A stretch of 37,070 bases of DNA, from NCBI GenBank assembly GCA_022788085.1, contig JALEWA010000022.1:1-37070 (forward strand), in the 5' to 3' direction. Shown piece by piece: positions 452-36,778 of the stretch; position 1 is the stretch's first letter; each line of letters starts with the position of its first letter. The notes beneath the pieces are model-generated. The model saw only the letters and a program-made list of their open reading frames with translations, did no database searches and was not told the origin of the DNA. Origin of the DNA: Lachnospiraceae bacterium. Its GTDB lineage: Bacteria; Bacillota; Clostridia; Lachnospirales; Lachnospiraceae. The position numbers were made by a program, and so were the translations under genes.

Positions 452-2803
452 TTAATCATCGTCACTCTCTTTTCGAAGTCCTACAAGATGTGCATAGGGT
501 TCAAAATCTGCTCTGGTAAATACCTTACCGGTCTTTACGAACTCATATTTGATAGCCTGCAGGTAATGCTTCATGCCTACCTTCTTCCCGTCTCCGTCTG
601 CTGCCGCAAGGAATGCCGCATTCAGGATACAGTTCTTGATATTACCACCAACAAACTCGAATCTCTCTGCCAGGAAACGGATATCCACATCATCATCAAG
701 AGGCGTTCCCTTAGGTATCGTTGTTCTCCATAGCATTTCTCTGGTATCAGGATCCGGGAACTGGAATTCGACAATATATTTCATACGTCTGAAGAATGCC
801 GGATCGATATTGTGCTTATAGTTCGTTGCCAGTACGGATACACCGTCGTATGCTTCTACCTCCTGAAGCAGAAGCGCTGTCTTATTATTATTCGATGCCT
901 GATTGCTGCCTCCATCATCCGAACGCTTTGCAAACAGGGTATCACATTCATCGAAGAACAGTACGACATTACATTTCTTCGCTTCCCTGAATATCATGGA
1001 AATAGATTTCTCTGTTTCACCAACGTATTTATCAATAACCTTGGAAAGGTCAACACGGTAAAGCTCAAGGTTCAGCTCATGGGCAATAACCTGGGCACAC
1101 ATGGATTTACCGGTACCGGGAGCTCCGAACAGAAGTACGGACAGCCCTCGTCCATAAGGGTATTTCTTCGTGTAATTCCAATTCTCATAGACCTGCTTCT
1201 TGAAGTTCATCTGGTCAATCGCATGCTGCAGAGTCTCACGCTGTGTCGGATTCATAACGATATCTTCAAAGCCGAAGTTCGCCTTTACCTTCGTTGCCTT
1301 CTGTGTCAGCTCGGAACTCATCTGGTTGTTACAGCCCTCGAAGAGCTTGGCTCTTGATATCTGTATCTCATGGTTCATAATTGCAAAACTTTTTGCCTGA
1401 TAAAGTGCGGAGCTTATTTTTCCCGGTGTAAAGAGGAACTTCGTTGCCACTTCCAGAAGGTCTACATCATCCGCAAGGGAGTAATTCCTGGCAAAATATC
1501 TCCAGCAGTTCTCTCTTTCCTGTGTATTTGGAGTCAGAAGCTCAAGCTCTGTAAAGTCCTTATCCGTAACACTCTTTAATGGGAGCTTGTCCCTGCTCAT
1601 CATGAAAATAAGTATGTCATGCTCCTGAAGCTTATTAATTGCAAGATCCATGTACCCAATATATTTTTCCTTCTCATCTTCTCTGTAATTAAGTTCATTC
1701 AGGCAACAACATGCATCCGTGAAGATACATTCCCTGTTCACTGCCCACAGAGCCTTTTCCACAAAGGAGAAGTCATATGCGAACAATTTCTTACAGTTCA
1801 TGATGATGGCGTTGATTCCGTTCTTCTTACAAAAATGCTTAATGAAGAATTTCCTTCCGCTTCCTTCATCACCATACCAGCTAAAAATTCTTGTTCCCTG
1901 CTGATAAGATATCTCCATGGCTTCCAGCTGTGAATCATTTGCCATGATGGGATCCAGCTCCTTCTCATCTGTCAGCATACTAAAAAAGCGGCTGTAGTTC
2001 TCATCAAGGCGCATCGGTGTCCGCCCAAACAAGTAATCTATCAGTCGCTTGTCCGGTGCAAGCAGCGTGGAAAAAGGCATGTTTGAATTTACTCTTAAGT
2101 CCATAACGGGAAGCAGCTTTTCAAGGCATACAGACATCTCGCTGTATGCTGTCGTAATGGAATAGCTGTCGCCAAAATACATACGCCCTGCTGATTCCAC
2201 AGTAGGCGCAACCAGATTTCCGTTCTCATTGACTACCTGGAAAACGGAAGCATAGCTTGTCTGTGTCGATGATAAAATCGCTGCCGCAAGGGCAAACACG
2301 GAAAAATGACCTAATTCCAGCTTCTTACACAATTCATGGAAGGGAAGCTTTACCTTATCGGTATTGGTAACGGACAATCTGGCATCAATAAAGGAAAACA
2401 TATTCTCTACCGTCATGCCTGCTTTTTTCTGCTCTTCATCCGATTCCTCGTCCTCTTCCTCTAAATCACTGTCATTCTCATCCTCTTCATCAGAGCTAAA
2501 GTTATCAAGGATACTACGCAGTTCATCATCAAATGCCTCATCCAGCTCCTGTATTTCCTCTTCTTCACTATCTGTACCATGAAAGAACTTATAGATACTC
2601 TCGCTACAAAGCTCATGAGCAATCTCAATATCCGGATACATGACATTCTTATAATTCCCCTGTCCTGCGTCATATTTCCTCATAAGTCCTTCAATATAAT
2701 CGGAAAGCCTGTAATTTACACATGCAAATACATAGTCCATATACTCGTCATAGCTTTCAAAGGGCTTTGACATCAATGATTCACTAAATCGTTTTTCCCG
2801 CAT
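452..2803 (-). CDS. AAA+ ATPase of contractile injection system (Afp15/Pvc15-like)
   Basis: 783 aa, near the usual length for the Afp15 family. The C-terminal AAA+ module has Walker A GAPGTGKS (about residue 560), Walker B LFFDECDTLF (about 615) and a following RRMKYIVEFQFPDPDTR arginine-finger region. A second, degenerate P-loop-like stretch, GDEGSGRK (about 310), suggests an inactive first ATPase domain. Residues 78-128 are extremely acidic (runs of E/D/S). In eCIS operons this ATPase accompanies the baseplate genes; it is thought to help assembly or remodelling of the particle, but its exact job is not settled. The start ATG has AGAGGATAGG upstream; another Met at residue 11 is possible. 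It lies 20 bp after the ABC ATPase gene. The identity as the CIS ATPase is firm; the role is family knowledge. Confidence 0.9.
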   Translation of the reverse strand: MREKRFSESLMSKPFESYDEYMDYVFACVNYRLSDYIEGLMRKYDAGQGNYKNVMYPDIEIAHELCSESIYKFFHGTDSEEEEIQELDEAFDDELRSILDNFSSDEEDENDSDLEEEDEESDEEQKKAGMTVENMFSFIDARLSVTNTDKVKLPFHELCKKLELGHFSVFALAAAILSSTQTSYASVFQVVNENGNLVAPTVESAGRMYFGDSYSITTAYSEMSVCLEKLLPVMDLRVNSNMPFSTLLAPDKRLIDYLFGRTPMRLDENYSRFFSMLTDEKELDPIMANDSQLEAMEISYQQGTRIFSWYGDEGSGRKFFIKHFCKKNGINAIIMNCKKLFAYDFSFVEKALWAVNRECIFTDACCCLNELNYREDEKEKYIGYMDLAINKLQEHDILIFMMSRDKLPLKSVTDKDFTELELLTPNTQERENCWRYFARNYSLADDVDLLEVATKFLFTPGKISSALYQAKSFAIMNHEIQISRAKLFEGCNNQMSSELTQKATKVKANFGFEDIVMNPTQRETLQHAIDQMNFKKQVYENWNYTKKYPYGRGLSVLLFGAPGTGKSMCAQVIAHELNLELYRVDLSKVIDKYVGETEKSISMIFREAKKCNVVLFFDECDTLFAKRSDDGGSNQASNNNKTALLLQEVEAYDGVSVLATNYKHNIDPAFFRRMKYIVEFQFPDPDTREMLWRTTIPKGTPLDDDVDIRFLAERFEFVGGNIKNCILNAAFLAAADGDGKKVGMKHYLQAIKYEFVKTGKVFTRADFEPYAHLVGLRKESDDD

Positions 2804-2823: not shown

Positions 2824-3486
2824 TTACACCTGCTGCTGTATGCAGCTATCTAAATCAAACACCTTGCCCGGTATCCCTTCTATTGCCTCATTATCATGAG
2901 TTGCTATCAGCATGGTGATTCCTAACATATCATGAATCTGAACCAGAAGCTCCATAATGGCTCTTGAGCCTGCCGGATCCAGATTACCTGTTGGTTCATC
3001 AGCTAGAACCAGCATCGGATTTCCTACAAGAGCCCTTGCAATGGCAACTCTCTGTCTCTCTCCCCCTGATAACTCCCCCGGATATCTCTTAAAATAATCC
3101 TCTAAACCTACCATTCTCAGCGCATGCGCTACCTGAACCGTTACATTTCTGTTTGCGACCCCTGACACATATTTTGTCAACGCTACATTCTGAAATATAT
3201 CCATATCTTCAATCAATTTATAATCCTGAAAAATGAACCCGATATTTCTTCTGTAATAAGGAAGCTGCTTTCTGTCAATCTGTGCAAGATTCTTTCCATT
3301 CACATACACATTGCCCTCATCTGCTTTAAGTTCTCCCAAAAGAAGCCTTAAGAGAGTTGTTTTTCCACACCCGCTTTTTCCTTTCAGAAAGCACAATTCT
3401 CCAGGCTTCATATAGAAATCCAAATCTTTTATTGCTACTGTGTCTGTATCATGAAAGATCTTGGTTACCCGTTCTAATCTGACCAT
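2824..3486 (-). CDS. FtsE-like ABC transporter ATP-binding protein, no permease in operon
   Basis: 220 aa, a full ABC nucleotide-binding domain: Walker A GKSGCGKTTLL (about residue 37), Q-loop IGFIFQDYKLIEDM, signature LSGGERQRVAIARAL (about 140), Walker B LVLADEPTGNLD, and H-loop IATHD. The Q-loop and overall spacing match the FtsE/LolD/MacB subgroup and are closest to FtsE in wording. It has no membrane segment and no FtsX-like or other permease is encoded anywhere in the window. It starts 2 bp after the STAS gene stop, so translation is probably coupled. FtsE works with FtsX to control peptidoglycan hydrolases at the membrane. By analogy (inference) this protein may energise one of the operon's membrane proteins or a wall-opening step. 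It may also use a permease encoded elsewhere. Confidence 0.85.
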   Translation of the reverse strand: MVRLERVTKIFHDTDTVAIKDLDFYMKPGELCFLKGKSGCGKTTLLRLLLGELKADEGNVYVNGKNLAQIDRKQLPYYRRNIGFIFQDYKLIEDMDIFQNVALTKYVSGVANRNVTVQVAHALRMVGLEDYFKRYPGELSGGERQRVAIARALVGNPMLVLADEPTGNLDPAGSRAIMELLVQIHDMLGITMLIATHDNEAIEGIPGKVFDLDSCIQQQV

Positions 3487-3815: not shown

Positions 3816-4886
3816 TTATTGAATCACAACAGTTCCATCCATAAGCTGTTCTTCATCTAAATCTGCAACGGAGCTTGTAAATACACACGCATTACGATCA
3901 AGATAGTTGTAGCTGTCAAGTACTCCTGTATTCTCAAGGAATACAACAGCGATTCTGCACCTTACCGGCTTGAACTGTTCCAGCAGATGTAACAGCTGAC
4001 GTCTTGTCGTCAGCTCCACCTTCGATTCAATCAACAAAGTTACATCATATGGATTGTCTCCATATAAATTATTATACACCTCTGTCTCTGAATACCTCAA
4101 GTACCTGCTCATCATACTTCGTTCAAGGATAATAGGTTTCTCACCAATGAAGAGTTCACAAAGCCTGTCAATGCACTGCCTCGTTCCCTTATTTGCCATA
4201 AGCCATGCTACATCTTTCAGAAGTGAACGCATAACAGCTTCACTGACATATCCCCCGGCAACATCCACACCAAACCATTTCAGATACATTTCCAGAAGCT
4301 GTACCGGCATCCTGTCAGGCTCCAGTAAATCCTCCATATGATCGATATTATTCTGAAAGTCATTATATATACTTGAAAAAATCGAAAGATAACGATGCAT
4401 AAAGCTGTTCTTCTCACGATAAACTTCCGGGAACAGTCTCATGAAATTATCTCCCGGTGCCTGAACGACCATGTTTGAAACCTTAACACCTTCACCAATA
4501 ATCTCTATGGCAATCCACAGATATCTTCCTTCGATTTCGTAAAGAAGTGCATCCTTTTTATTGATGAAGCGAAGGCATCTGTTCGCTGCAAGGAATCTGA
4601 TTTTCTCACGGAAACCTTTCTCGCTATCCATCATAATTTCTCTGCCAAGCGGTTCATTCATTGCACACAGATATAGATAAAACACGGTATCCTCAGGCAA
4701 TTCCATATCAAAGGATATTCGTCCCCAGGAGCAGTCAGCCACCCCACTGTCCAGGAGCGGCAGTATCATATAATGCATCCCTGTGTTTTCACTGCATTTT
4801 ATTCCATTTTCTCCATCCGGCTCTATTCCATAATAGAATGTCTTATCCAGTCTGTTTCTGCCAATCGTAAATTGTATTCCAGCCAT
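3816..4886 (-). CDS. Baseplate protein, phage tail protein I-like
   Basis: 356 aa. The central region (about 150-260) reads RLFPEVYREKNSFMHRYLSI, then DLLEPDRMPVQLLEMYLKWF, then LMANKGTRQCIDRLCELF, which is the pattern of the phage tail protein I family used in eCIS clusters (TIGR02242-type domain). In phage P2, gpI is a baseplate wedge-tip protein linking to the fibres. The N-terminal third is beta-rich and is typical of the CIS versions. It directly follows the two baseplate-J proteins, the conserved wedge gene order. It likely closes the wedge and could provide a fibre attachment point, but no fibre gene follows. The start ATG has AAAGGGG upstream at a somewhat long distance. Confidence 0.85.
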   Translation of the reverse strand: MAGIQFTIGRNRLDKTFYYGIEPDGENGIKCSENTGMHYMILPLLDSGVADCSWGRISFDMELPEDTVFYLYLCAMNEPLGREIMMDSEKGFREKIRFLAANRCLRFINKKDALLYEIEGRYLWIAIEIIGEGVKVSNMVVQAPGDNFMRLFPEVYREKNSFMHRYLSIFSSIYNDFQNNIDHMEDLLEPDRMPVQLLEMYLKWFGVDVAGGYVSEAVMRSLLKDVAWLMANKGTRQCIDRLCELFIGEKPIILERSMMSRYLRYSETEVYNNLYGDNPYDVTLLIESKVELTTRRQLLHLLEQFKPVRCRIAVVFLENTGVLDSYNYLDRNACVFTSSVADLDEEQLMDGTVVIQ

Positions 4887-4921: not shown

Positions 4922-7033
4922 CTATACATTTGTTGCTGTCAGCACCTCAATCGTAATTCTGCCGGGATAGAACAAACAGTTCTTTGCCGGATACAGGTCT
5001 GCTCCTTCTGTCGATACATACTCTGCTTTAGCCGGCTCAATGTTCAGCTCATATACATAGGACACACATTCCAATGTATCCAATGCATGAAATACCTTAT
5101 CAAATCGAAGAGGTTCCCCAAAATTCCGGGTTCCGTGTATATAATCCAGTTCCCTGACTACTGTTTCATGTATGATCAGATCACAATTCTTAAGATGTGG
5201 CTTTACATAAACCTTTCCACTTACATTTACGGGTACATATACCGGCTGTAAGATTCTGATTGATGTTGACAGCAGTCTCTTTCGTTCCAAATATCTGTCT
5301 AATATTCTCAGATAGACATCGCTCATCTTAGGGAACTCCTGTTCAAGCTTTGGCATCACTGCAACCTGTACCTCATTTCTGTCATCATCCCTCCATGCTC
5401 GGGCCTTACCAATGCATAGCCCCGGAGTGTTCTTTACGAGCTTTTCATAATCCTCCTCTATGACTGCCGTCTGCGGTGTATTCATTTCAGAAATGAATCT
5501 TCGTCTGACCTGCTCTAAGGTTTCCTGATAACTTCCTCCAACACCTTTCGTTGGATTGGAAAAGGTTATGCTCTCATCAATCTCAGCGCTGATAAAGGTA
5601 TTTCCTTTCCTTACATTACCATCCTCGCCTGCTACCACTGCCACGGAACCGATAAACAGGGAGGCTCCGACATAATCACCTGCATCATGAATGACAATCT
5701 TACCTTCATTCTCATAAAGGTAATAGGACATCTTTTTCTCATCCATTTTATTAGGCTTCAGGAAATCATAAAGGTAACCGCCTTCTCCATCCTCCCTGCG
5801 GGCAATCACACAGAAGGTCTCTGTTACAACATGTCCTACAGGAAGCTTAATCTCCTGATTATCATAACCATATACATCACCAAGATAGTATTTTCTCATC
5901 ATCTCTTCATTATAGATTACGATTTTCACCGGATTCTTTATATTTGCCGGGGCATAGCCAAAAGCATCCTTATCAAAAGAAAATTCCGCTTTGCCATGTC
6001 CTGTTTTTCTTTTTCTGTAATATCTTCCCACGGGAAGTTCTGTATAGACATCATCCACACACTCCTCATACTTGCGATAGGAGCTTCCCTTCTGTTCTTT
6101 TGCAAATACACTGATATAGCCGTCCTCCAGCATATTGCATTTCATACAGATTTCTGTGCTTCTCTGAAAGCTGTGTGTAATGGCTAATGTTTCCTTCTGT
6201 ACTACCTGAAAGAGGAATCCTGACACATGCTTTAAGGCCGGTGCAACATCATACTCTGAATGAACCAGAGTAGCTCTCCATACATAGCCCTTAATCCCAT
6301 CCTGCTCATACAAAGCTGCCGGAGCGGATGGCTGTGTAAATACAAGCTCTCCATCCATTAAAAATCCAACGGTACCATCCTCTACCTCCATTTCAATGAA
6401 TCCGCTTTCACAGTAACACTCCCATTTCAGCTGTGCAAATACCCCGATCTGTTCTTCATGAAAAGGATTTCGCCCATAATCACTTGCCACATCAATATGT
6501 ATGATTCCCTGTTCTCCCGGCTTAAGCGGTTTATCCATAACAATATAAAGCTGGGAGCCTGCCTGTGGTTTCTTTCCGAATATTCTTGCAAGCATGGAAA
6601 TATTCCTGTCAAGAACATAACTCAAATCCTTTGAATGCTCACCTGTACGATTGAAAATACCTGTGATATGGCTGTCTACGACCTCAATCGGGCGATTTGT
6701 TTCAAAGCACATATCCCCGACCATGAATCTTTGGTCAGCCAATATAAAAAAACGTTCCAAAACATGTTCCGGCTCCAGATATACCCTTGCTCCTTTTCCT
6801 TTCCTTGGTGTATATCCAAGGAGCTTCAGGATCTTTGCCTTCACATCATCCGTAACCTCATCCATTCTGTTCTGTTGAATAATCTGGGCTCCGGAAAGAT
6901 TCTCCAATATTGTGATACCGGGATCGGACGGATTATAATTTGTCCACTCGTCGGTATAGATCGGTATCTTACTTATATTTTCATCCATGAGCTCTGCATA
7001 TGTTTTTTGTGGCATTATTTTCGGACTTAACAT
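4922..7033 (-). CDS. Baseplate wedge protein, baseplate J-like (second, 703 aa)
   Basis: 703 aa. The N-terminus contains YNPSDPGITILENLSG, the hallmark of the 'putative baseplate assembly protein' branch of the baseplate-J family, followed by KILKLLGYTPRKGKGARVYL. The C-terminal half holds the J-type segment with RRRFISEMNTPQTAVIEEDYEKLV and a ferredoxin-like end with VPVNVSGKVYVKPH. It corresponds to the second wedge subunit (gp7/Afp12-like) that pairs with the longer J protein encoded just upstream. Wedge proteins surround the hub and trigger sheath contraction. Start at 7033 is chosen over Met at 7015 because it keeps the conserved N-terminus; the ribosome site (AAAGG or GGTAAG) is ambiguous. 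Confidence 0.9.
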   Translation of the reverse strand: MLSPKIMPQKTYAELMDENISKIPIYTDEWTNYNPSDPGITILENLSGAQIIQQNRMDEVTDDVKAKILKLLGYTPRKGKGARVYLEPEHVLERFFILADQRFMVGDMCFETNRPIEVVDSHITGIFNRTGEHSKDLSYVLDRNISMLARIFGKKPQAGSQLYIVMDKPLKPGEQGIIHIDVASDYGRNPFHEEQIGVFAQLKWECYCESGFIEMEVEDGTVGFLMDGELVFTQPSAPAALYEQDGIKGYVWRATLVHSEYDVAPALKHVSGFLFQVVQKETLAITHSFQRSTEICMKCNMLEDGYISVFAKEQKGSSYRKYEECVDDVYTELPVGRYYRKRKTGHGKAEFSFDKDAFGYAPANIKNPVKIVIYNEEMMRKYYLGDVYGYDNQEIKLPVGHVVTETFCVIARREDGEGGYLYDFLKPNKMDEKKMSYYLYENEGKIVIHDAGDYVGASLFIGSVAVVAGEDGNVRKGNTFISAEIDESITFSNPTKGVGGSYQETLEQVRRRFISEMNTPQTAVIEEDYEKLVKNTPGLCIGKARAWRDDDRNEVQVAVMPKLEQEFPKMSDVYLRILDRYLERKRLLSTSIRILQPVYVPVNVSGKVYVKPHLKNCDLIIHETVVRELDYIHGTRNFGEPLRFDKVFHALDTLECVSYVYELNIEPAKAEYVSTEGADLYPAKNCLFYPGRITIEVLTATNV

Positions 7034-7063: not shown

Positions 7064-10000
7064 TTACAGGAAGTGTATCTTGTGTTCCCCATTCATTACC
7101 AATACATAAGGATTCCCCTGCAGTGCAGCCAAATCTGCTTCATGCGTACCATTTTCGTCTTCATACATAGCTGAAAACATCACTTTCTCGATCAGAGCAC
7201 TGCCCTTTTCTATATTCAGCTGCATTCCTATCTGCTTTGCACTGACCATTCTTCCAATATCCCAGAATTCATTGCTTACAGGATCCAGATATTCTTCCAG
7301 AACATTGATAAAATGCTGTTGCATATCAAAGCTGTCATCTGATTCTATCAGTCTTACCCAAAGCTGGGCTGATACTTTGACGAACAAGGGCTGTACCACG
7401 TCCAGATACCGCTCATCCACGGATAACTCGCACTTTGTCAGGAGATGGTCTCTAATTCTGTTCTTCATCTTTAAGAAGGAATTATCACCATCCTTAAAAT
7501 CATTCATCAACAGTACAATTGAAATTGCCCCCGGCACATTTGTTCCATCCTTACGTATATTGACAATTGCCTTTGCCTGACTGATACAGTTTGAGAAATT
7601 AAGTACCTCTCTCTCATAATCCATGGTAGAGATAAGACGGTTCTTACTTCCAAGCTGTGTGGCGCCTCGTCTTAACGCTTCGTCCAATGTTTCCATGTCC
7701 GTTCCACCAAATGCCGGCATCGGATTATAGATATCGTTAACGAACATGATATTTCCCAACGGAGCATTGATAGCTCCTGCTTCTACATTTGCCAGGCTTC
7801 CTTCACATCTGCGTACAACTATCTTAAAAGCGATTCCCCTGGTATTCTTAGGAATCCTTACATGTACCCCATCACCAAAGGATATCGTGTTATTCTGTCT
7901 GTCAATCATATAATGTCTGTCAGAGGCACAGGAATTGTCAAAATTATCGACTTCCTCCCACTTTATGTAGAACTCCTGTATCGCGCCTCCCAGGCTATAT
8001 TCCGCTCTTGTCACGGCAGGCTGCTCACCAAGCATGCTGCGCATTTCACTCTCTGTGAAGTTATCCATCTCATTTACCCATACATCTGCATCCAGAATAT
8101 TATCTGTATTCAGGGCAAAGGTCATATTCGGTCCAAACCAGTCGATGTAATAATCCTGCTCGTTCAGGGTATCTATGTTATTGACTTCTACCGCATTCAC
8201 CCGTATGCTCTTAATCATCGGACTCTTATTCGGTTCCAGCTCAATCTCCTGCTTCTCATCCGTGATTCTGATCCAATAAGCTTCTTCTCCTTCCATGACT
8301 CTCTTAGCCATATCTGTCGGCGGTATGAATACAATGGTGCCGGAATGCTCCAGCCCATTTGTGTTGTCAATCAGCTTAAGCCTTGAAAATCCCTCTCTTG
8401 TTGAGTAATAATACCTGATATTTCTTCCTGAATATCCCTCTACTTCCTCCACATCTATCAGGATACTGACAGGTCCGTCTTCCATTCTTCTATCAAACCC
8501 AAGATATAGAGAAGTAGTATTATATGGGTTTCTGAAGAATACCGGTGTATATGGATTTTCTGCCAGCGTAGCTGTCATATCCCTTTTTCTGCTACCCTGG
8601 AAACAGATCAGCTTCTGCGGTGTATCCAAATGATGCTCGTAGGAGTATGACACCGTCAAGTTCCGAATAACCGGATAGTTATGAACCGCCGGCTGATAAT
8701 AACAGTTATCTGCCTTAAGAAGCCTGAATCTAAGCCAATGTCCTTCGCTGCTTCCCTCCTCCACACTCTTCCAGTCCTTCGGACATTCGAATTCTATCTC
8801 ACATTTTCCGCCCTTTGCATTCTGGAAAAGCTGACTTACAGGTGCTGTCGTGTTGAGGCGCTTCCAACCAATACCATTGTAGTATTCAATAATAATCTCA
8901 TCTGCATATACTTCTGCCGGAGCACCATAAATGTCTCTTCTTGGTTTCCTCTTAATAACCTTGAGCTGTTCTTCCTCTTCATATCTTGGAATTGACACCA
9001 TTTTCGTACCAAACTCCAGATAAAATTGAACTGTAATATATGCCCCCGGTTTCGTGAAATATTCTTCATGATTCATATAAAGCTCTGAGTACATGCTCAT
9101 AACTTCGCCAAACGGTTTAAAATGGTCTGTCTCAAGCTCACTGTTACCGTCCCACACATTCTGTAACGCTTCCGGCTTTCCTTCAGAAGAAAAGCCAATT
9201 TTTGATACCATAACTGTTTTCGTGATTGGCACCGTTGGTTCTATCAGTAATATGGAATACTCTGTTCCATTCTGCGTGAGCTTGCCACATTCCTGCTGCT
9301 TTCTGAATACAATACGTTCCTTACTTTCTCTTGTAATATCTGTTATCGGAATAAAGCTGCCCTGTCCAAAATATTTTAATTCATAGCTTCCTGAAACAAT
9401 ACCATCAATAATTTCTTCCCCACCCTTAAGTTCCATCACAATGTCATTGTCCTGCACATCAAACAGGTGGGAATGGTACAGAAGCATTCCATGAAGTCCG
9501 TAATCAGGCTGATCAAAATCAAACAGGCGAAACGGGAATCCCTGTTCCTGTTCCTCTTCCTGCTCCTCCTTTACCATTCCTTCCAAAAGTTCCTGCAGGT
9601 TTGTAAAGAACTCATTCATTCCCTTTGATATTTCTTCAGCCAGAGTTGGTTCTTTCTCGATATCCGCAGACCTGCTGCTTTCCTCCGCTTCTGCGGAAGC
9701 ATTTTCCATTATCTGCGTTTTCGGGACTTCTTCCTCTTCTTCCTCATCCGTTTTTACTACAATGCTATCAGGCTCAATATAAGAAGGCTGTTGGAAATCT
9801 CCTGTAACAGGATATAAATTTCCTGTCATTCCCGATGTCATGAATACTGTCTTAAGCTGTGAGTTTGTAAGATATACGGTATTTGCCGTTTCAAAGATAA
9901 TCTCCTGTTCTCCACCGTTATCTGCCAGAAGCTTTATTCCTTTCGGAAGCTTCACACCCGGTACCGTATTATCAACAAGATCCATAAGCACTATACTATG

Positions 10001-10685: not shown

Positions 10686-10722
10686 AAGCTTACCATACCC
10701 TTCCACTAATTATTTCTTCTGC

Positions 10723-17180: not shown

Positions 17181-17186
17181 TTTATG

Positions 17187-17192
17187 CCTCCT
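17187..17192 (-). promoter_or_regulatory. AGGAGG ribosome binding site deciding the tube 2 start
   Basis: A perfect AGGAGG on the minus strand lies six bases before the ATG at 17180, and overlaps the first codons of the longer GTG-initiated frame, which is therefore unlikely. Confidence 0.85.
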
Positions 17193-17200
17193 TAACACCT

Positions 17201-27017: not shown

Positions 27018-28229
27018 CTATACAGAAATCGTATACATGAAGAACTTATCCTCATGTCCTACTGCTATAAAGGTATAACTCAAATCATTAATCTCATATA
27101 CATACATATAGATGAGTGCCTCTCCATCAAAGCTGTCTACCTGTACATATTCATCATATTCCTCTGTGTATTCCAGATTTGGTTCAAGTGCAATATCTCT
27201 GCCATTGTCCTGACACCACTGAATGGCAACTGCATCATAAAAGTTCATGTAGCTGTTACCTTCAAACTGTGGCTCACCTAAGTGTTCCTTCAGTTGACTG
27301 ACTGTTTCAATTCTTTTTTCCCCTGATACAAAAACATCCCTGATCACATAAAGTGTCTGAGCTTTTGCGGTTGTATCCAGGCTATTTTCTGTACTGGTTG
27401 GAATGTAGAGCGCTGAAATCTCATTCATTGCTATCATACTCTCGTCATTGTAGGCATATAGCTTTTCACTGCCGGTATAAATACCATTCATATCTTCCAC
27501 TGTTTTGTCAAGAAGCTGTGTATATTGCAGTTCTCCACGTTTGAATGATCCGGTAAATACCTTTTTCTCTGCAAGATTGTATAACTCTCCTTGTCCATCC
27601 TGATAGTTCTCCTGAAACTCTCCGGAATAATACAGTGCCCCTCCCGGTCGGTAAAGCTTGCCTTTACCCTGATACAGATTGTCTACAAAGTCACCCTCAT
27701 AGTGAAGCTGCCCGTTTGGATAATACTGTTTTCCTGTTCCGTTATACATGTTCTTCGAAAACTCTCCGGAATAAACGAGTCCTCCGTCCGGATCAAAGAG
27801 TTCTCCCTGCCCTTGTGCATATCCTCCCTTGACATGTCCTGTATAAGCAATGTATCCTCGCTTGGCAGTGATATTTACATCCGCATCCATGAACTTTAAC
27901 GGCCATGAATTATATTTATATGTTTTTATGCTTCCGTCACTTCCCAAAGACTGGAAAGGCTTTACCAGCCACAGATAGCCAAGACATATCAAACCGACAC
28001 ACAGGATAACTACATGAGCCAGTCTCCTGCTCACCATGATTCCAAGGAAGGTGTAGTAATCTTTCTTATTTCTTGGTTTTACATTGAACAGTCCTGCCAG
28101 CCACTGTTGAAATCTGTTAATGACTCTTGTCTTAATATAGTTAGCATTTGTCCAATAACGTAATCTCGCAGAAATAGCTGCAAACCGATATTTAATTGTG
28201 TTAACAATCATATTAAAAAATTGATTCAT
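27018..28229 (-). CDS. Membrane-anchored MORN-repeat protein
   Basis: 403 aa. A basic N-terminus of about 65 residues is followed by one membrane segment (about 70-90, VVILCVGLICLGYLWLV), which predicts an inside N-terminus and outside C-terminus. Residues about 128-235 contain four to five MORN-type repeats: GGYAQGQGELFDPDGG, NMYNGTGKQYYPNGQ, NLYQGKGKLYRPGGA and NYQDGQGELYN. The remainder is a beta-rich C-terminal domain without a clear family. MORN repeats usually bind proteins or membranes; an extracellular placement beside a CIS suggests a scaffold role at the cell surface (inference). The ribosome site and short gaps make it part of the envelope block. Confidence 0.75.
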   Translation of the reverse strand: MNQFFNMIVNTIKYRFAAISARLRYWTNANYIKTRVINRFQQWLAGLFNVKPRNKKDYYTFLGIMVSRRLAHVVILCVGLICLGYLWLVKPFQSLGSDGSIKTYKYNSWPLKFMDADVNITAKRGYIAYTGHVKGGYAQGQGELFDPDGGLVYSGEFSKNMYNGTGKQYYPNGQLHYEGDFVDNLYQGKGKLYRPGGALYYSGEFQENYQDGQGELYNLAEKKVFTGSFKRGELQYTQLLDKTVEDMNGIYTGSEKLYAYNDESMIAMNEISALYIPTSTENSLDTTAKAQTLYVIRDVFVSGEKRIETVSQLKEHLGEPQFEGNSYMNFYDAVAIQWCQDNGRDIALEPNLEYTEEYDEYVQVDSFDGEALIYMYVYEINDLSYTFIAVGHEDKFFMYTISV

Positions 28230-29949: not shown

Positions 29950-30792
29950 TTAATCAATCAAAGATTCTGTTCCAATCTTTTTAAAGGTGTGGAAAAATAA
30001 TCGTAAAAGCGGTATGTCCCCCCAAACAGTCCTGCTTATGAAAACAATCAATGCCAATATAGCCAAAATCAGACTTACTATCAGCAGTATCCGGAAAATA
30101 GTAGAATCATTCCTGATGAAGAATGCCTTAATTCTTCCAATCAGACTGCGCTTTTTAGCTGTCGTCGCGGCAAGGCGGATATCCTTATAAAGCTCACGGA
30201 AGCTTATGTAACTCTGTTTTGGAATCTTCTTGGCTAACAACTTATATCCTATGTTCTTCTTCGATATCTTCTTTTCCAGCATATCTCTGACAACAAGTGC
30301 ACATTGCATCACGCATCCTGCTTCTGTACAGTTTTCGTCAAGCTCCTCCAGGTCAACTGCATAGCTGAGTGCTATTCCATTATCCTTCAGTAGCTGAATC
30401 TGCTTCTGTTTTATGATTAGCTCAAGCAAAGGGTATGGCAGTCCGGAAGTCATACACTGCACGACCAGATTCAGGCATATATCCTCACATAATTCCAGAG
30501 GCATATCCCTTGCCATGAAGAAATCGGTAAGCTTTCTTTCCTTGACATAATCAAATACCATGCAGAAACCTTTACTGCTGTCGAACATATCGATGCAGCA
30601 TTCTCTTCCCATCGGAGAAGCTTCCATGATAATCATCAGCTTTCTGACTGTTTCATGGTTCTTGATTACGAGAACGGTATAATATGTATTTCTTCCATTC
30701 TTTACGTTTTCGCATATCTCTACGTCATTTACCTTTCCGCTAAAAACATCCATAACCGTGCTCAGCGTCATCTTTCCTGACTGATAAACCAT
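29950..30792 (-). CDS. Membrane-anchored pseudokinase-like protein
   Basis: 280 aa. The N-terminal about 200 residues resemble a small protein-kinase fold: strands with ICENVKNGRNTYYTVLVIKN, a hinge-like FCMVFDYVKERKLTDFF, then helices LELCEDICLNLVVQCMTSGL and a short KQIQLLKDNGIALSYAVDLE stretch where the catalytic loop would be. No HRD or DFG motif is present, so any kinase fold is catalytically dead. Near the C-terminus (about 230-256, LLIVSLILAILALIVFISRT) is one membrane segment, with a 24-residue tail outside. EssB/YukC of type VII secretion has a similar pseudokinase plus membrane design, which is an analogy only. A membrane-anchored CIS partner, as seen for CisA in Streptomyces, is possible. 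Confidence 0.5.
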   Translation of the reverse strand: MVYQSGKMTLSTVMDVFSGKVNDVEICENVKNGRNTYYTVLVIKNHETVRKLMIIMEASPMGRECCIDMFDSSKGFCMVFDYVKERKLTDFFMARDMPLELCEDICLNLVVQCMTSGLPYPLLELIIKQKQIQLLKDNGIALSYAVDLEELDENCTEAGCVMQCALVVRDMLEKKISKKNIGYKLLAKKIPKQSYISFRELYKDIRLAATTAKKRSLIGRIKAFFIRNDSTIFRILLIVSLILAILALIVFISRTVWGDIPLLRLFFHTFKKIGTESLID

Positions 30793-30804: not shown

Positions 30805-32640
30805 CTACTTCATTTGAAATAAATCATTTTGAGCCTTATCCTCTTTGATTTCATCGACTGCCTTCTTCTTAACAATTGCATATGCATAAGTACAGATTAA
30901 CGGCTTGTCTGTGCAGAATATCTTAATCTCATAAACTCCTTCCTTCGATGGTGCTGTGTAAATACCATCGGAGGTAATCTCACCACTTGAGCTTTCTGTA
31001 AGCTCATAACTAATAGAACATGCCTTCATGTTATTATACTTAACCTGGAAGAAGTAGCTTTCCTTTGTTCCAAGTACAATCGTAGGAGTCACTGCACTAA
31101 TACTCTGATTGGTTGTCGTCTCAATCTCCTCCTGAAGATTCTCACTATCATAACGTATTGCCACCCAGCGGTATGTGAGCACCAGCATTCTTACATTCTG
31201 TAGCAGTTTTACAGCTACCACAAAGCTTCCCTTGTCGTTAAGTACCTTGACTGCTGTTTCCGCAGCTACATTGATTCTATCCTTCTCAAACAGCTCAGGG
31301 TTACCATAAATCGTTGTCTTTGTTGGATTCTGACTGACAGCATTCTCTTCAAGATATTCATAACCAACTTCTACATAGACATTTCCTGCGCCTAAGCCAT
31401 GCATGATTTCGCCGGAATAACAGATATCGCCCTTCTTAGCATTCTCTCCGATTGGGATTTCAACGATTCCCGTTTCCAGTCTTGGCATATTTACCGAAGA
31501 ATTACTCTTTGTAATATCTGTTTTTCCCACCGCTGCCGAAGGAGTATTTCCTTCATACATCGGAAGTCTCTTACTGAAATAAGAACTGTATTCCAGCCTC
31601 TTCCATGCATCCCTCATGGTAGGCACATAATTCTTTACATTTTTCTCATCTACTGTTTCAATCAGATAAGCAGCTCCTGTCTTTACAATAGTCAGGTTAG
31701 CAAGCCTGATTCTGTCTGATGAGCTTCTCATTCCCCTGAGTTCTATATTCACATTTCCCGTCTGCCTTGCTGACAGATGTGATGTTGATTCGTCCACAAT
31801 AACAATCTTACAGTTAAGCTGAGATATAATTGGCTGCTCAACGCCGTTTACGAGTGCTTTTCCACTCCCCGCCTTGAACATGATACTTGTATCCGGTGTT
31901 TCCTCTGACTGGGCAAGCATCCAATATTCACGGACAATTCTCTGTCCTTTATTCAAAGAGATATTTTCAAGGAGAAGTGAAAGTTCCTGTCCGCCTTCCA
32001 TCGTGCTTAATGCCGGTGTCTGAATTACACCTTCGTAGTAAAGATTTGCTTTACCATCACTTAGCTTCTCTACCTGAAGATCTATCTTTACATATTGTCC
32101 TGCGCAAATATATGACGGCAGCTTAAGCTGTACCTTATAGTCCTTATTTTCTAAGAGAGTACCACCTGTGTAGAATTCCGTTTCCGGTTCATAATCCTCT
32201 TCAAGACTTTCTATGTCTTTTAAGAACAGTTCATAACCTTCTTCGATTCTGTTGTTCTCATATTCCTTCTCACTATCCTGTCTGTTGATTGCATATACAG
32301 GCTGTGTTTCTGTCTCTGCGTATCGGATACAAAGACATACATCATTTGTTTTCAGTTCTTCAAATCCGGCAATGGTAGAAAGCTTCTTGACAACGGAGTT
32401 CTCGACCACGATTTCACGTCCTGTTTCATCAATCGCCATACCACTTTCAATCAGAAGTGACTGATCATCAAGGCTGACTACATTTAATCCGCATACAATA
32501 CCTGATCCTGTTACCATGGCATTCAGGAATCTCCTCTTGTCATTCATGTAACTCTGTTCTGCTTCAAAGTCCACTGATGTAAGCATCTTTCCCTTATAGT
32601 ATCTGTTTCTGCTAAATGGTAATAATCTGTTATTATTCAC
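30805..32640 (-). CDS. CIS-associated protein with conserved N-terminal baseplate-like motif
   Basis: 611 aa with a GTG start and TAGGAGTG seven bases before it. Residues 13-54 hold RYYKGKMLTSVDFEAEQSYM, NDKRRFLNAMVTGSGIVCGL, which matches the 'YFNGQLLTARDLQDEQDYHxxKRRxHNRxLHGWGVVCGL' type N-terminus seen in a protein family recurrent in eCIS clusters. The middle is beta-rich with repeated sandwich-like strands, and the last about 100 residues (TPTIVLGTKESYFFQVKYNN, SDGIYTAPSKEGVYEIKIFC) look like an Ig-like domain. There is no signal peptide. It is likely a particle component, possibly a peripheral baseplate or surface-binding part. If any gene here substitutes for a tail fibre, this is a candidate. 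Confidence 0.6.
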   Translation of the reverse strand: MNNNRLLPFSRNRYYKGKMLTSVDFEAEQSYMNDKRRFLNAMVTGSGIVCGLNVVSLDDQSLLIESGMAIDETGREIVVENSVVKKLSTIAGFEELKTNDVCLCIRYAETETQPVYAINRQDSEKEYENNRIEEGYELFLKDIESLEEDYEPETEFYTGGTLLENKDYKVQLKLPSYICAGQYVKIDLQVEKLSDGKANLYYEGVIQTPALSTMEGGQELSLLLENISLNKGQRIVREYWMLAQSEETPDTSIMFKAGSGKALVNGVEQPIISQLNCKIVIVDESTSHLSARQTGNVNIELRGMRSSSDRIRLANLTIVKTGAAYLIETVDEKNVKNYVPTMRDAWKRLEYSSYFSKRLPMYEGNTPSAAVGKTDITKSNSSVNMPRLETGIVEIPIGENAKKGDICYSGEIMHGLGAGNVYVEVGYEYLEENAVSQNPTKTTIYGNPELFEKDRINVAAETAVKVLNDKGSFVVAVKLLQNVRMLVLTYRWVAIRYDSENLQEEIETTTNQSISAVTPTIVLGTKESYFFQVKYNNMKACSISYELTESSSGEITSDGIYTAPSKEGVYEIKIFCTDKPLICTYAYAIVKKKAVDEIKEDKAQNDLFQMK

Positions 32641-32652
32641 TTTCTTACACTC

Positions 32653-33177
32653 CTATCTTTCTTCCGTGCTTTCCTCTTGTATCTCTGTAAGCTCCAGATA
32701 TTTTGCTGAAACATAGCCTTCGATATCATGGAACCGAATCAGATGCCACTCTTCTCCGACCTCAATGACCTCAGCCGTATTTCCGTTTTTCATGAAGCTG
32801 ATTACTTTTCCCTGCATGGATGCTGCATCCCTGATCATAAGTCTGCTTGTGCCGACATTGACTGCTGTTGCCATATATTGCTTCACAGGCTCCTCTGTCA
32901 CAGTACTTTCTTCCACTGTTGGTTCTTCTGTTTGTTCTGTTTCTGTTGTCTGTTCTGTTTCTGCTTCTGTCGTTGTTTCTATTACTTCCTCTGTGCTTTC
33001 CGTTACTTCACTCTGTTCGTTTTCTGTCTGCCATGTGCTGCTTTCCTCACATTCTTCTGTAACAGCCGCTACCTCAGTAGTTGGATAATCCGACTGCCCA
33101 TAGCATATCGCTCCGGCTCCTATTCCACAGATTCCATAAAGTAATCCCAGACTAAGCAGCGTTTTCTTTCTATTCAT
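32653..33177 (-). CDS. Membrane-anchored SH3b-domain protein with Thr/Glu-rich linker
   Basis: 174 aa. The N-terminus (KKTLLSLGLLYGICGIGAGA) is an uncleaved signal anchor or signal peptide. Residues about 33-100 are a low-complexity linker of T, E, S, V and Q, typical of wall-spanning parts. Residues about 102-165 form a bacterial SH3 domain: AVNVGTSRLMIRDAASMQGK, VISFMKNGNTAEVIEVGEEW, HLIRFHDIEGYVSAKYLEL. SH3b domains bind peptidoglycan or peptides. The protein probably sits outside the membrane within the wall and may help position the CIS or sense the wall. It lies between the sensor kinases and the 611-aa protein with short gaps (5 and 12 bp). Confidence 0.82.
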   Translation of the reverse strand: MNRKKTLLSLGLLYGICGIGAGAICYGQSDYPTTEVAAVTEECEESSTWQTENEQSEVTESTEEVIETTTEAETEQTTETEQTEEPTVEESTVTEEPVKQYMATAVNVGTSRLMIRDAASMQGKVISFMKNGNTAEVIEVGEEWHLIRFHDIEGYVSAKYLELTEIQEESTEER

Positions 33178-33182: not shown

Positions 33183-34076
33183 TTATCCTTTATTTTCAAC
33201 CGGAAACTGTATATAGATTGCCATTCCTTCACCCACGCTGCTCTTTGCATATACCGTTCCATTGTAATGTTCTACGACCGCCTTTACCTGTGCCAATCCC
33301 AATCCATTACCGCTCTTACGATTAGAGCCCTGATAATTTAATTCAAAGATATGTGGAACTTCATCAGGGGAAAGTCCATCTCCGTTATCCTTACAAACAA
33401 TGAAGATTCCCTCTTCTCCAATATTGGAAATCGTAATTACAAGACTTCCACTTCGGTTCATGTACTTGATGGAATTATCAATAATATTGCTAAGAAGCAC
33501 AATCATGTATCGCTCATCACATTTCATGTTCAGTGTTTCGAAGGAAGTTGCGAGTTCAAGTCTGATTCCATTCTCCCTGCAAGGCTCTATAAACTTCTCA
33601 TAAACTTTATTAATCACAGAAATCAAGTCTGTTTCCACTGCCACTTCATTCATAGGAAGAAGCATATTGTATTTTTCCTGATTGTTCTTCAGAGAATCCT
33701 CAATTTCCTTTTCCGAAAGCTTACGTAAGAGTTCTTCATTCTCCTTCTGTATGTCCGTCACATCACCTGTAAGCTTCTTTACCTGAATATCAAGCTCTCC
33801 TTTTTCCTGTCTGAGTGCAGCGATTGTTTTGTTCTTCTCCTCTGTATCAGCATCTGTATATTCTGTCCTGTTCTCCTCTGCATCCAGTGCTGCCTGGATG
33901 AATCTGTCCTGACTGATATAGAAATAAGCCATCGTAAGGACTCCATGTAAGGCAAAGAAAAGTAACGCATAATTTCTGTCATTGTTAATCATGAAATACA
34001 GTGATGCAATATAACAGGAAAGCATAATCACAAGGACGACGATTTCTGTTTTTGTTATTTTTTGTATTTTTTTCAT
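33183..34076 (-). CDS. Membrane HATPase protein lacking a visible H-box (histidine-kinase-like)
   Basis: 297 aa. Two membrane segments (about 10-30 and 38-55) are followed by a coiled coil (about 60-125), then a GHKL ATPase domain: N-box NIIDNSIKYMN, G1-type CKDNGDGLS, F-type PHIFELNYQGSNRKSG and G2-type NGLGLAQVKAVVEHYNG. Between the coiled coil and the ATPase domain, where a DHp histidine should be (SLKNNQEKYNMLLPMN), there is no histidine. It could still bind ATP and control a partner, or it phosphorylates a residue I cannot identify. The ATG shares bases with the upstream TGA stop (ATGA overlap), so it is translationally coupled to the response regulator. Confidence 0.8.
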   Translation of the reverse strand: MKKIQKITKTEIVVLVIMLSCYIASLYFMINNDRNYALLFFALHGVLTMAYFYISQDRFIQAALDAEENRTEYTDADTEEKNKTIAALRQEKGELDIQVKKLTGDVTDIQKENEELLRKLSEKEIEDSLKNNQEKYNMLLPMNEVAVETDLISVINKVYEKFIEPCRENGIRLELATSFETLNMKCDERYMIVLLSNIIDNSIKYMNRSGSLVITISNIGEEGIFIVCKDNGDGLSPDEVPHIFELNYQGSNRKSGNGLGLAQVKAVVEHYNGTVYAKSSVGEGMAIYIQFPVENKG

Positions 34077-34471
34077 TTTTCCTTCACATCCTTACGTTTT
34101 TTCATGTATAACAATTTGTTTATCTTCTGGATGAAGGCTTCCTCATCAATAGGCTTTAATGCATAATCATTAGCACCATGCTTAAAGCATTCTAATACGT
34201 GTCCCTTATCGTTATTGGAAGTCAGCATGATAATCGGCATTGCTGATTCTGGATTTGCCCTTATGCGGTCAAGGACTTCAATTCCATTCATTTCCGGCAT
34301 ATCAATATCAAGGATCAGTAAATCAGCTTCTTGGACTTCCAAAAACGCCAATGCCCTATCTGCTTTCGTAAAGCCTCTAAACTCATAATTGCTGCCTAAA
34401 AGTACTTCCAGCATTCTTACAATGATTGCACTGTCATCCAATGCTACGATTCTCTTCTTTCTAACTGCCAT
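34073..34471 (-). CDS. Stand-alone response regulator receiver protein
   Basis: 132 aa, one REC domain only. Acidic pair in IVALDDSA (Asp12/13), phospho-acceptor Asp in LLILDIDMPEMNG (about residue 55), the conserved Thr in IIMLTSNND and Lys in DYALKPIDEE are all present, so it should be phosphorylatable. There is no DNA-binding or other output domain, so it signals by protein contacts or takes part in a phosphorelay. It is 3 bp after the hybrid kinase gene and overlaps the next HATPase gene by 4 bp (ATGA). The likely phosphate donor is the HPt domain of the hybrid kinase. Confidence 0.92.
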   Translation of the reverse strand: MAVRKKRIVALDDSAIIVRMLEVLLGSNYEFRGFTKADRALAFLEVQEADLLILDIDMPEMNGIEVLDRIRANPESAMPIIMLTSNNDKGHVLECFKHGANDYALKPIDEEAFIQKINKLLYMKKRKDVKEK

Positions 34472-34474: not shown

Positions 34475-36778
34475 CTATTCCCCTCCCAAAAGATTTTTCA
34501 AAATATCCATTGCCTTATCATCATCATATTCCATCGCAACTGCTTCTTTCGCAGCTTCCAGATTTTTGCCCCAGCAAAGCCAGCTTTTTTCATGAATCAG
34601 TTTGTCTAACAGTTCCGTCGCCTTATCGGATTCGAATTCTTCCAGAAATGTATTTGCAGTTTTTATCTGTTCCTGCCATTTACTGATATCCGACCATACT
34701 GCATACTCATTTTCATTCTCCACATTTCCCCTGGAAAGCTTTCGAAATACTTCCTGTGTTCTATGTGTCATTTCTTCAAGCTGCTGATAATGTTTTGTCA
34801 GGTATTCCATGTTGCCTTCCTGCGCATTCTTCTCATGCTCCAATGCGCATTCCGCCAGCTTTTCTGCCCCCAGAGTAGCTGCATTTCCCTTTAAGCCATG
34901 CACCTGTATCTTATATCCGGCTGTATCTTTCGTTTCCAGAAAGCTGTTCAGTTTTCCTAAGATTTCATCTGCCTGCCTTACGAACATTCCTGCAAGTTCC
35001 AGATAAGCTTCAAGGTCTTCATGCAAATGAGATAATCCCTTCTCAAGGCTGATGTCATATTTCTGAAGTAACTCTTTGATTTCCTGTTTAACGCTATTGG
35101 AACCTTCTTCCTGTTTTTTCCTGGGGCGCTCTGTACAGATCAATTCCTGAGGGATCAGCCTGGCAACCATCTCTTCGAGTTTTAAAGGATCTATTGGTTT
35201 CGTCAGGATATCATCAAATCCTTCCTCATGATATAACTGTGTCAGTCCTGATACTGCATTGGCTGTCAGCATGACTACAGGTGTCTTATGCTGGTCAAAG
35301 TTCTTATTTTTCCTTAGCTCCCGTAAGGTCTCGATACCGTCCATTTCAGGCATCTGATGATCCATTAATATCAAATGGAATTCTTCCTGTTTAACAATTT
35401 CTAATGCCTTCTTACCGCTTTCTGTCGTTGTGACCTGCACTCCCGTTCTCTTTAGAAGTCCTTTGGCAACCTCTAGATTCATGGAGTTATCATCTACTAC
35501 TAATATCCTGGCTTCCGGTGCATACAGGGTAGTTTGATCATCCTTTGCATTTCTCTCAATGCTCATTTTCTCCTGCATGCTGACCTTTCCAATCGGCTCG
35601 CTGCTCTTAATTTGTTGCGGAATCGTTACAGTAAAGGTCGAACCTTTCTGATATGTACTTTCAAGCTCTAATTTACCTCCCATAAGTTCCAGGAGTGACA
35701 TTGTAATATTCATGCCTAGTCCTGTTCCTTCTATACGTTTATTCTTCTGTGCATCAAGTCTCTTGAAGCTTTCAAAGACAGCATCCTTATCTTCTTGACG
35801 AATACCGATTCCGGTATCCTCTACTGCAATGATTAAATCAATCATATCTTGTGTTTCCGGTTTCTTTTGAAAGCTTAATCTTAGGTTCACCTCACCCTTG
35901 GGTGTATATTTCACGGCATTGGTCAACAGGTTTGTAACAATCTGTTTGATACGGATATCATCACCATATAGTCTTGCCGGTGTATCCGGATCAATATGGA
36001 AATAAATAGCAAGTCCTTTTTCCCTTGCTCTAAGGAAAATCAATCCCCAAAGCTCCTGTAACAACCCCTTCAACTCATACTCTGCTTCCGTCAGTTCCAT
36101 TCGTCTTGCTTCTAATTTTGACATGTCCAGAATATCATTGATTAGAAAATGTAACGTCTTTCCTGCATTTTGCATGTGTAGGGCATACTCAAGAATCTTA
36201 TCATCCTGAGTTTCCCTCAATATCATTTCATTCATGCCCAATACTGCATTGATTGGTGTCCTGATTTCATGGGAAATATTCGATATAAAACGGCTTTTTG
36301 CCTCATTTGCTTCGATTGCCTCATTCTTGGCTGCTTCCAATTCTTCGTTAAGAAGTCTGATTTTATTCAGTGCCATACGTGCATCGCGAAGTTCGTTGAT
36401 TCCTGTCAAATCTTCCATGACTATGACAACAGCCTTTCCTGCTTCCTTGCTGTTAAGATAGCTTACGGAAACAGAAACCCATATTTCCTCTTCCTTCTCT
36501 TTGTCTCCTTTTTTCCCGGCAAGTTTTACTATTTGTCCTCTGACTCTTTTTCTTTCAAAGATAGTACTAAGTACAATCTCATGAAATTCGTCATTTTCTT
36601 CATTTTCTGCCATGAATAAAGCATATGGAAAGCCAATAACGCTGCTGTCAGCATCTAGTAGCTGCATTGCAACGTCATTCATCCGGATAACCGTCCCCTT
36701 TGCATTTATAACAATAATTCCTTCCTGCATGCTGTCCATCATTTCTTCATACAGGATTGCATTTAATTCCGTTCCCAT
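34475..36778 (-). CDS. Hybrid sensor histidine kinase (PAS-HisKA-HATPase-REC-HPt)
   Basis: 767 aa from the ATG at 36778, which has GGGGA upstream; a TTG at 36808 in frame (777 aa) is also possible. Domains: PAS (about 5-110, SMQEGIIVINAKGTVIRMND), coiled linker, HisKA with SRFISNISHEIRTPINAVLG (His about 172), HATPase with VEDTGIGIRQED and GTGLGMNITMSLLELMGG, REC with ILVVDDNS and MDHQMPEMDG (Asp about 472), and HPt with QVHGLKGNAATLG (His about 626). No membrane segment is present, so it is a cytoplasmic sensor; the PAS domain would bind the signal. It is the first gene of the operon and probably starts a phosphorelay to the stand-alone REC protein encoded directly after it. Confidence 0.93.
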   Translation of the reverse strand: MGTELNAILYEEMMDSMQEGIIVINAKGTVIRMNDVAMQLLDADSSVIGFPYALFMAENEENDEFHEIVLSTIFERKRVRGQIVKLAGKKGDKEKEEEIWVSVSVSYLNSKEAGKAVVIVMEDLTGINELRDARMALNKIRLLNEELEAAKNEAIEANEAKSRFISNISHEIRTPINAVLGMNEMILRETQDDKILEYALHMQNAGKTLHFLINDILDMSKLEARRMELTEAEYELKGLLQELWGLIFLRAREKGLAIYFHIDPDTPARLYGDDIRIKQIVTNLLTNAVKYTPKGEVNLRLSFQKKPETQDMIDLIIAVEDTGIGIRQEDKDAVFESFKRLDAQKNKRIEGTGLGMNITMSLLELMGGKLELESTYQKGSTFTVTIPQQIKSSEPIGKVSMQEKMSIERNAKDDQTTLYAPEARILVVDDNSMNLEVAKGLLKRTGVQVTTTESGKKALEIVKQEEFHLILMDHQMPEMDGIETLRELRKNKNFDQHKTPVVMLTANAVSGLTQLYHEEGFDDILTKPIDPLKLEEMVARLIPQELICTERPRKKQEEGSNSVKQEIKELLQKYDISLEKGLSHLHEDLEAYLELAGMFVRQADEILGKLNSFLETKDTAGYKIQVHGLKGNAATLGAEKLAECALEHEKNAQEGNMEYLTKHYQQLEEMTHRTQEVFRKLSRGNVENENEYAVWSDISKWQEQIKTANTFLEEFESDKATELLDKLIHEKSWLCWGKNLEAAKEAVAMEYDDDKAMDILKNLLGGE

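Follow-up and report, generated by a model that had tools for sequence, protein, structure and literature searches.

The question of how a contractile machine could act across the thick wall of a Gram-positive cell is raised by a 37,070-base contig of a Lachnospiraceae bacterium (assembly GCA_022788085.1, contig JALEWA010000022.1), which was analysed in its entirety and is called the window hereafter. The window carries a contractile injection system (CIS) and, on the same strand, a set of envelope and signalling genes. It derives from a 3.69 Mb genome, 96% complete, in which no Omp85 match and three sortase matches were found, the Omp85 search being positive in 7 of 14 control genomes; the host is therefore monoderm, as had been claimed in the original prediction made from the DNA letters. 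That prediction had also listed a full CIS together with a phosphorelay, STAS, SH3b and MORN proteins, a "pseudo-cyclase receptor", a "membrane pseudokinase-like" protein and two large secreted proteins, all of which are present when the window is searched by Pfam/NCBIfam, hydropathy, profiles and fold models. The 31 genes taken are all encoded on the minus strand, neighbours either overlapping slightly or standing no more than 92 bases apart, and the layout of this co-directional array makes a single long operon plausible. The observation is thus real and extends beyond the earlier note: the window holds a monoderm CIS type carrying a conserved envelope module.

An envelope module tied to the contractile injection system

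The module consists of six consecutive genes, given here in the direction of their transcription:

30805..32640, minus strand: D611, Cis13-like baseplate/fibre protein without a transmembrane (TM) segment (partial match to CIS13_fam)
29950..30792, minus strand: PK, predicted kinase fold at residues 1-213 (fold model), TM helix at 235-253, C-terminal IGTE motif
28259..29923, minus strand: CYC, membrane receptor with a degenerate class III cyclase domain (profile comparison) and a C-terminal tail
27018..28229, minus strand: MORN, TM segment at 71-89, then MORN repeats and a C-terminal domain (Pfam, hydropathy)
24939..26984, minus strand: TOLC, signal-like N-terminal segment, TolC-fold domain at 33-459 (fold model), C-terminal beta domains
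21962..24889, minus strand: SEC, 975 amino acids, signal-like segment (hydropathy)

This module is tied to the CIS. Among 397 genomes of the family, apparently the same draw in the sheath, PK and TolC-like searches, a sheath was found in 44 (about one tenth, a divergent clade included), and the PK alignment matched 30 of these 44 and none of the 353 sheath-negative genomes, one of the 30 matches (G006) being a 30-residue fragment only. The TolC-like alignment matched 22 genomes, 21 of them sheath-positive and one (G222, a weak and partial match) sheath-negative. Tested against the sheath in 2x2 tables, these distributions gave 1e-34 for PK and 1e-21 for the TolC-like gene, values uncorrected for kinship. 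Twenty neighbourhoods were also read, 12 belonging to the near clade and seven to a second clade, the lone sheath of G046 being left out. All 12 near-clade loci have matches to the MORN, TolC-like, SEC and PK genes, those to SEC spanning 13-94% of its length and two of those to PK being truncated where the stretch ends. The Cis13-like gene is matched in 10 loci (the stretches of the remaining two stop short of it), CYC in 9, STAS in 10, the FtsE-like gene in 5 and SH3b in 3. A lack of co-conservation of the accessory genes, set beforehand as the refuting outcome for the original prediction, is thus not what the Cis13-like, PK, CYC, MORN, TolC-like and SEC genes show, and is what the HK1 phosphorelay shows.

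When the Cis13-like alignment was searched against a genome collection of 84,980 species, at least 565 relatives were confirmed, the best 80 loci of which were analysed; their titles are mostly Lachnospiraceae, the others being Butyrivibrio, Eubacterium, Dorea, Acetatifactor, Eubacteriales, Clostridiales, Bacillota and "bacterium". Gene order hardly varies, as counts limited to genes whose neighbour is visible show: the Cis13-like gene is followed by PK in 77 of 77 cases, PK by CYC in 71 of 74, CYC by MORN in 63 of 63, MORN by the TolC-like gene in 58 of 61 and the latter by SEC in 50 of 55. These counts do not describe all CIS, since the best 80 loci are the closest relatives.

The association reaches further, into a second sheath clade (clade B) of about 50% identity, in most loci of which Cis13-like, PK and MORN genes come after the baseplate genes. 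Downstream stretches were read in 15 clade B genomes, two of which (G333 and G344) end before the Cis13-like gene and two (G253 and G361) have no baseplate genes; the remaining 11 show a Cis13-like gene and the next gene, which in 9 of the 11 matches the PK model. In G242 the next-gene protein is PK-sized, with a TM segment and a tail, and in G380 it is shorter and matches PK by profile only (E 2.2e-7). A clade B profile built from 10 sequences, including that of G242 and not that of G380, matched the PK family of the window with a profile probability of 99.5. A species of the genus of the window (G196:C33) carries a clade B CIS, and G403 and G409, of the same genus, have that of the window's kind. 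Of 341 genomes sampled across the class, five had a PK match, a strong one in four; these four, the own genome among them, all carry a sheath of 66% identity or more. One of the four, G435, belongs to another family of the order; its contig C35 (L193 and L194) has the stretch of the array that begins with the Cis13-like gene and reaches the tube genes, and its sheath is 70% identical. So long an array in common suggests horizontal transfer.

Furthermore, the inner part of the module diverges together with the core. Pairwise distances in the same 11 genomes (55 pairs, which are not independent) correlate at 0.86 for PK and BPJ2, 0.83 for PK and the sheath, 0.87 for the Cis13-like gene and GPI, and 0.80 for MORN and the sheath.

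D611 matches CIS13_fam (NF053767) over residues 9-154 with 97.8 bits (E 8e-28), below the curated cut-off of 370 bits, and the two appear to have the N-terminal domain alone in common. A TM segment is lacking by hydropathy in 13 of the 16 sequences of the Cis13-like alignment, the window included, and two of the remaining three have one near the N-terminus. In PK, a bilobal protein-kinase fold is seen in the predicted structure model, followed by the TM helix and about 27 residues holding the conserved IGTE motif. It is this model, and not sequence, that settled the fold: the profile comparison with 15 kinases gave a probability of 1.2 and did not show it, and the best sequence match in the PDB is a kinase, with E 0.0028. 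A second hydropathy segment, flagged in 24 of 45 PK proteins, corresponds in the model to one of the helices that make up the kinase fold. Active protein kinases have a conserved catalytic Lys, HRD and DFG; in the PK alignment columns, inspected by eye, position 44 is Lys in 23 of 45 and no HRD occurs at the expected place. The fold is thus inactive-looking, and the "pseudokinase-like" description stands. EssB/YukC of type VII secretion has a cytosolic pseudokinase domain, one TM helix and an extracytoplasmic tail, an architecture resembling that of PK; the profile probability with one EssB sequence, from a same-genus genome, is 0.2, and EssB is not among the listed fold matches for PK, an absence which excludes nothing.

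CYC and class III cyclases from relatives match by profile (hhalign probability 96.6, E 6.8e-10); the domain went unseen by Pfam in 12 CYC members and by PDB sequence searches. Class III nucleotide cyclases have two metal-binding Asp and an Asn-Arg pair. The CYC alignment shows neither an Asp at the first of the metal positions nor the Asn-Arg pair, and one Asp lies near the second of these positions, so that the cyclase domain looks dead from its residues. The MORN repeats are probably on the far side of the membrane. As for the two large secreted proteins, TOLC has the TolC fold in its model, and SEC has no match in Pfam, NCBIfam or PDB sequences. Of an outer-membrane beta-barrel such as that of TolC, the TOLC model has no more than short strands, which lie in linkers of 17 and 31 residues, and the genome has no Omp85 match.

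The core and the other genes of the array

The eCIS-type core is complete in one cluster, with sheath, tube, spike, gp25, baseplate J, tip, cap and AAA ATPase:

21327..21926, minus strand: Pvc16-type cap/terminator (Pfam/NCBIfam)
20589..21326, minus strand: CRD, 245 amino acids, weak carboxypeptidase-regulatory-like match, between cap and PAAR
20199..20588, minus strand: DUF4280/PAAR tip (Pfam/NCBIfam)
18432..20144, minus strand: contractile sheath (Pfam/NCBIfam)
17843..18409, minus strand: inner tube protein, gp19 (Pfam/NCBIfam)
17404..17766, minus strand: P120, tail assembly chaperone-like (phrog_508)
17201..17461, minus strand: DUF6760 protein, overlapping P120 (Pfam/NCBIfam)
16668..17198, minus strand: second tube protein, gp19-type, weak CIS5 tube adaptor match
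14647..16632, minus strand: CC661, tape-measure candidate (length variation in relatives)
13871..14623, minus strand: CIS_tube protein a
13062..13856, minus strand: CIS_tube protein b
11554..12969, minus strand: gpD-like hub protein
10723..11535, minus strand: spike (Phage_base_V, VgrG-related)
10239..10706, minus strand: gp25 sheath initiator
7064..10270, minus strand: large baseplate protein, putatively Cis11-like (TIGR02243)
4922..7033, minus strand: baseplate J protein (TIGR02243)
3816..4886, minus strand: Tail_P2_I protein, putatively Cis12-like
452..2803, minus strand: AAA+ ATPase, Cis15-like

The counterparts of CC661, between the second tube protein and the CIS_tube genes, range from about 170 to 1,606 amino acids in relatives, a variable length that makes CC661 a candidate tape measure. 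The AAA ATPase (452-2803) also has a match below cut-off to the model of the anti-phage ATPase IteA. A prophage origin was rejected: when 50,697 phage records were searched by tblastn (E 1e-3), PK gave no match, and the sheath matches 2,606 of them, all with less than 60% identity and none covering 80% of the sheath. In G046 (G046:C1:3754917-3756605, at the L050/L051 junction) a sheath of 62% identity stands alone, the roughly 20 kb to its left and to its right having no match to a further CIS gene, and the sheaths of G253 and G361 also precede unmatched genes; these isolated sheaths look like remnants or may have another use.

The regulatory and other accessory genes are the following:

34475..36808, minus strand: HK1, soluble hybrid kinase with PAS, HisKA, HATPase, REC and Hpt (Pfam, hydropathy)
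34073..34471, minus strand: RR, single receiver domain
33183..34076, minus strand: HK2, two hydrophobic segments, HATPase, no HisKA match
32653..33177, minus strand: SH3b protein, N-terminal hydrophobic segment
3489..3812, minus strand: STAS protein (Pfam)
2824..3486, minus strand: FtsE-type ABC ATPase, no permease gene in the window

The 31st gene, an acetyltransferase, is truncated at the contig end. A scan of positions 17700-37070 for promoters and terminators found sites no commoner than in shuffled sequences. Two-component genes beside extracellular CIS (eCIS) were known already (PMC8213781). Among the best-80 loci, 63 have at least 3 kb upstream of the Cis13-like gene, and in 26 of these 63 an RR- or HK-like gene, mostly of another kind, is found among the four genes nearest to it on that side. 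The longest HK1 match in the 12 near-clade loci spans 32% of its length, and none of its 23 matches in the best-80 loci covers 80% of the query; for HK2, 11 of 20 matches cover at least 80%. The phosphorelay as a conserved part of the machine is rejected for HK1 and the single-domain RR, which lack conservation in relatives. By eye, no His is found in HK2 in the segment ahead of its HATPase domain, and HK2 and the STAS protein could form a partner-switching pair.

Upstream of the Cis13-like gene, open reading frames (ORFs) of more than 1,000 amino acids without Pfam match occur at L115:451-7401, L137:3349-7839, L144:5816-9925 and L105:1894-5187 (1,098-2,317 amino acids). Six of the 22 large upstream ORFs listed were scanned, and besides these four they comprise one PolC and one with an ABC1 kinase-like domain. 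The four unmatched ORFs are effector or surface-protein candidates.

Proposed docking on the membrane and its alternatives

The reading that we prefer, and hold to be evenly balanced between right and wrong, is that in monoderm Lachnospiraceae the CIS docks on the cytoplasmic membrane of its own producer and fires outward on a signal; docking, wall crossing and firing are deduced from genes and predicted structures. The Cis13-like protein would link the baseplate to the cytosolic face of PK, which would take the anchoring part played elsewhere by the TM helix of Cis13 in the thylakoid CIS or by CisA in Streptomyces. Since the Cis13-like protein lacks a TM helix, and the product of the next gene, in each near-clade locus that shows one, crosses the membrane once and has a large cytosolic fold, PK would be the simplest replacement anchor. 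CYC may sense a cue from outside and, its cyclase domain looking dead, would relay it through protein contact and not through a nucleotide, so that the baseplate would be released to fire. The MORN, TolC-fold and SEC proteins would build an exit across the wall or guide it, and the conserved IGT tail of PK may make contact with this exit; the two-component genes nearby might set expression. Taken as a trans-envelope type VI secretion system (T6SS) that monoderm Lachnospiraceae evolved for themselves, with the Cis13-like protein docked on a membrane pseudokinase, a dead-cyclase receptor as trigger and a wall-spanning TolC-fold conduit in place of a periplasm, the proposal is fairly unlikely to hold in all its parts.

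Several observations weigh against membrane docking. PK was not matched at cut-off in 14 of the 44 sheath-positive genomes, some of these being contig ends and some having a divergent PK, with G046, G253 and G361 looking like remnants. In the class-wide sample G455 gave a weak PK match (E 5e-7) and no sheath match, and 13 other sheath-positive genomes had no PK match at cut-off; one of the 13, G022, carries a PK-like gene, so that the PK search misses divergent copies. In Paenibacillus cellulosilyticus and in Haloferax larsenii, the locus with the Cis13-like gene has no PK, CYC, MORN or TolC-like match, and the module is thus not general. No wall-hydrolase domain was matched by Pfam in 30 window proteins. 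Distances of the TolC-like gene correlate with those of nine other genes of the locus at 0.04-0.39 only, and relatives have TolC-like proteins away from CIS loci as well. Finally, gene order and co-divergence do not prove the proposed binding of PK to the CIS.

The low correlation bears directly on a different view of TOLC and SEC, rather unlikely in our estimate and compatible with docking through PK, in which the two form a separate, exchangeable module, such as a surface appendage or a cargo exporter, riding in the operon. In agreement with it, the cap directly follows the TolC-like gene, without SEC, in 4 of 55 best-80 loci, clade B genomes G320 and G086 keep PK and CYC and have no TolC-like gene, and relatives have TolC-like genes beside FtsE-type ATPases with no CIS genes in the stretch. 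On the other hand, the 21 to 1 distribution of the TolC-like gene over sheath-positive and sheath-negative genomes argues for a link with the CIS, as do three OEP frames of 677-700 amino acids in other same-genus genomes, which were found without reference to CIS and lie in CIS-type clusters (the short contig of G404 shows the CYC-MORN-TOLC-SEC part alone). PAAR, a core tip gene, correlates equally low (0.13-0.39), so that a low correlation alone is no ground for setting a gene apart from the machine. The distances do not support co-evolution of the TolC-like protein with the machine, and as a CIS hallmark this protein was rejected, OEP matches being found in 11 of the 22 genomes searched, own included. 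Our reading is that the Cis13-like, PK and MORN genes are an inner membrane unit inherited with the CIS, and that the TolC-like gene is exchanged or evolves by other rules. In two other families, TolC-like genes of 379 (L205, G423) and 438 amino acids (L206, G427) adjoin an FtsE-type ATPase, a response regulator or a kinase; these clusters are perhaps a TolC-containing exporter in monoderm relatives, and the FtsE-like and TolC-like genes of the window may derive from such an exporter.

Two further explanations concern the machine as a whole. An unlikely one is a cytoplasmic CIS as in Streptomyces, whose free particles would be recruited to the membrane by PK, as an analogue of CisA, only under stress, and would fire and kill the producer. 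The Streptomyces CIS also belongs to a monoderm and requires a membrane protein encoded at the usual tail-fibre position (PMC12237407); PK adjoins the Cis13-like gene and, in clade B, comes directly after the baseplate genes, and no toxin domain was matched by Pfam in the 30 window proteins. Against this, the near-clade loci retain Cis13-like, TolC-fold and SEC proteins, for which a suicide device would have no obvious need. Quite improbable, in our judgement, is a released eCIS that leaves by lysis, with the Cis13-like protein as receptor-binding fibre and the membrane proteins merely timing assembly, loading or lysis. Its core gene set is indeed of the Afp/PVC type, AAA ATPase and Pvc16 cap included; however, the same Pfam scan gave no holin or endolysin match, although lysis genes could lie elsewhere in the genome, and the divergence of PK and MORN in step with the baseplate would be unexpected for timing proteins.

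Significance and known systems

If docking is true, this would be, to our knowledge and from literature searches, the first known T6SS-like machine of a monoderm bacterium, and a player so far unsampled would be added to bacterial competition in the gut. The locus gives a small, testable set of genes (Cis13-like, PK, CYC, MORN, TolC-fold and SEC). PK stands next to the Cis13-like gene in 77 contigs of the best-80 set, many of them from the ruminant gut by title, and titles other than those of metagenome-assembled genomes (Butyrivibrio sp. Su6, Lachnospiraceae bacterium AD3010) indicate that a cultured carrier probably exists. In the literature searched, outside of which lay most subscription papers and all preprints, "contractile injection" and "pseudokinase" are never paired, and "contractile injection system" and "Lachnospiraceae" are paired in a reference list only.

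In T6SS subtypes i-iii a trans-envelope complex holds the contractile machine at the inner membrane. This complex is that of TssJ, TssL and TssM, none of which had a Pfam/NCBIfam match among the window proteins scanned, and an unrelated membrane module may stand in for it. Human-gut CIS of Bacteroidota are reported in a metagenome survey (PMC12210884). In the thylakoid CIS of Anabaena, the baseplate is bound by a trimer of Cis13, for which a C-terminal TM helix serves as anchor (PMC8894136); the window shares with it a protein of the Cis13 family, that of Anabaena being baseplate-bound in a membrane-held machine. Unlike it, the Cis13-like protein of the window has no TM helix, and the next gene encodes a TM protein. 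The Streptomyces CIS, likewise of a monoderm host, requires for its function CisA, a bitopic membrane protein whose gene lies by those of the baseplate and whose cytosolic part is described as largely unstructured (PMC12237407), whereas PK has a predicted kinase fold and about 27 residues past its TM helix.

A further parallel in the envelope is found in the haloarchaea. The CIS of Halogeometricum borinquense bind the cytoplasmic membrane in a T6SS mode, the T6SS having until then been described in Gram-negative bacteria only, and their nearest Cis11 relatives are reported as Bacillota (PMC11566945). Like the host of the window, these archaea have no outer membrane, and their machine has a clade-specific putative membrane anchor; this anchor, with six TM helices and a cytoplasmic domain of about 150 residues, is unlike PK, and the word "pseudokinase" is absent from the text of that article (PMC11566945). 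In the locus of Haloferax larsenii, as in the window, a Cis13-like gene is present, there directly beside the sheath. Membrane-bound haloarchaeal CIS, together with this one locus, show that docking of this sort is workable without an outer membrane.

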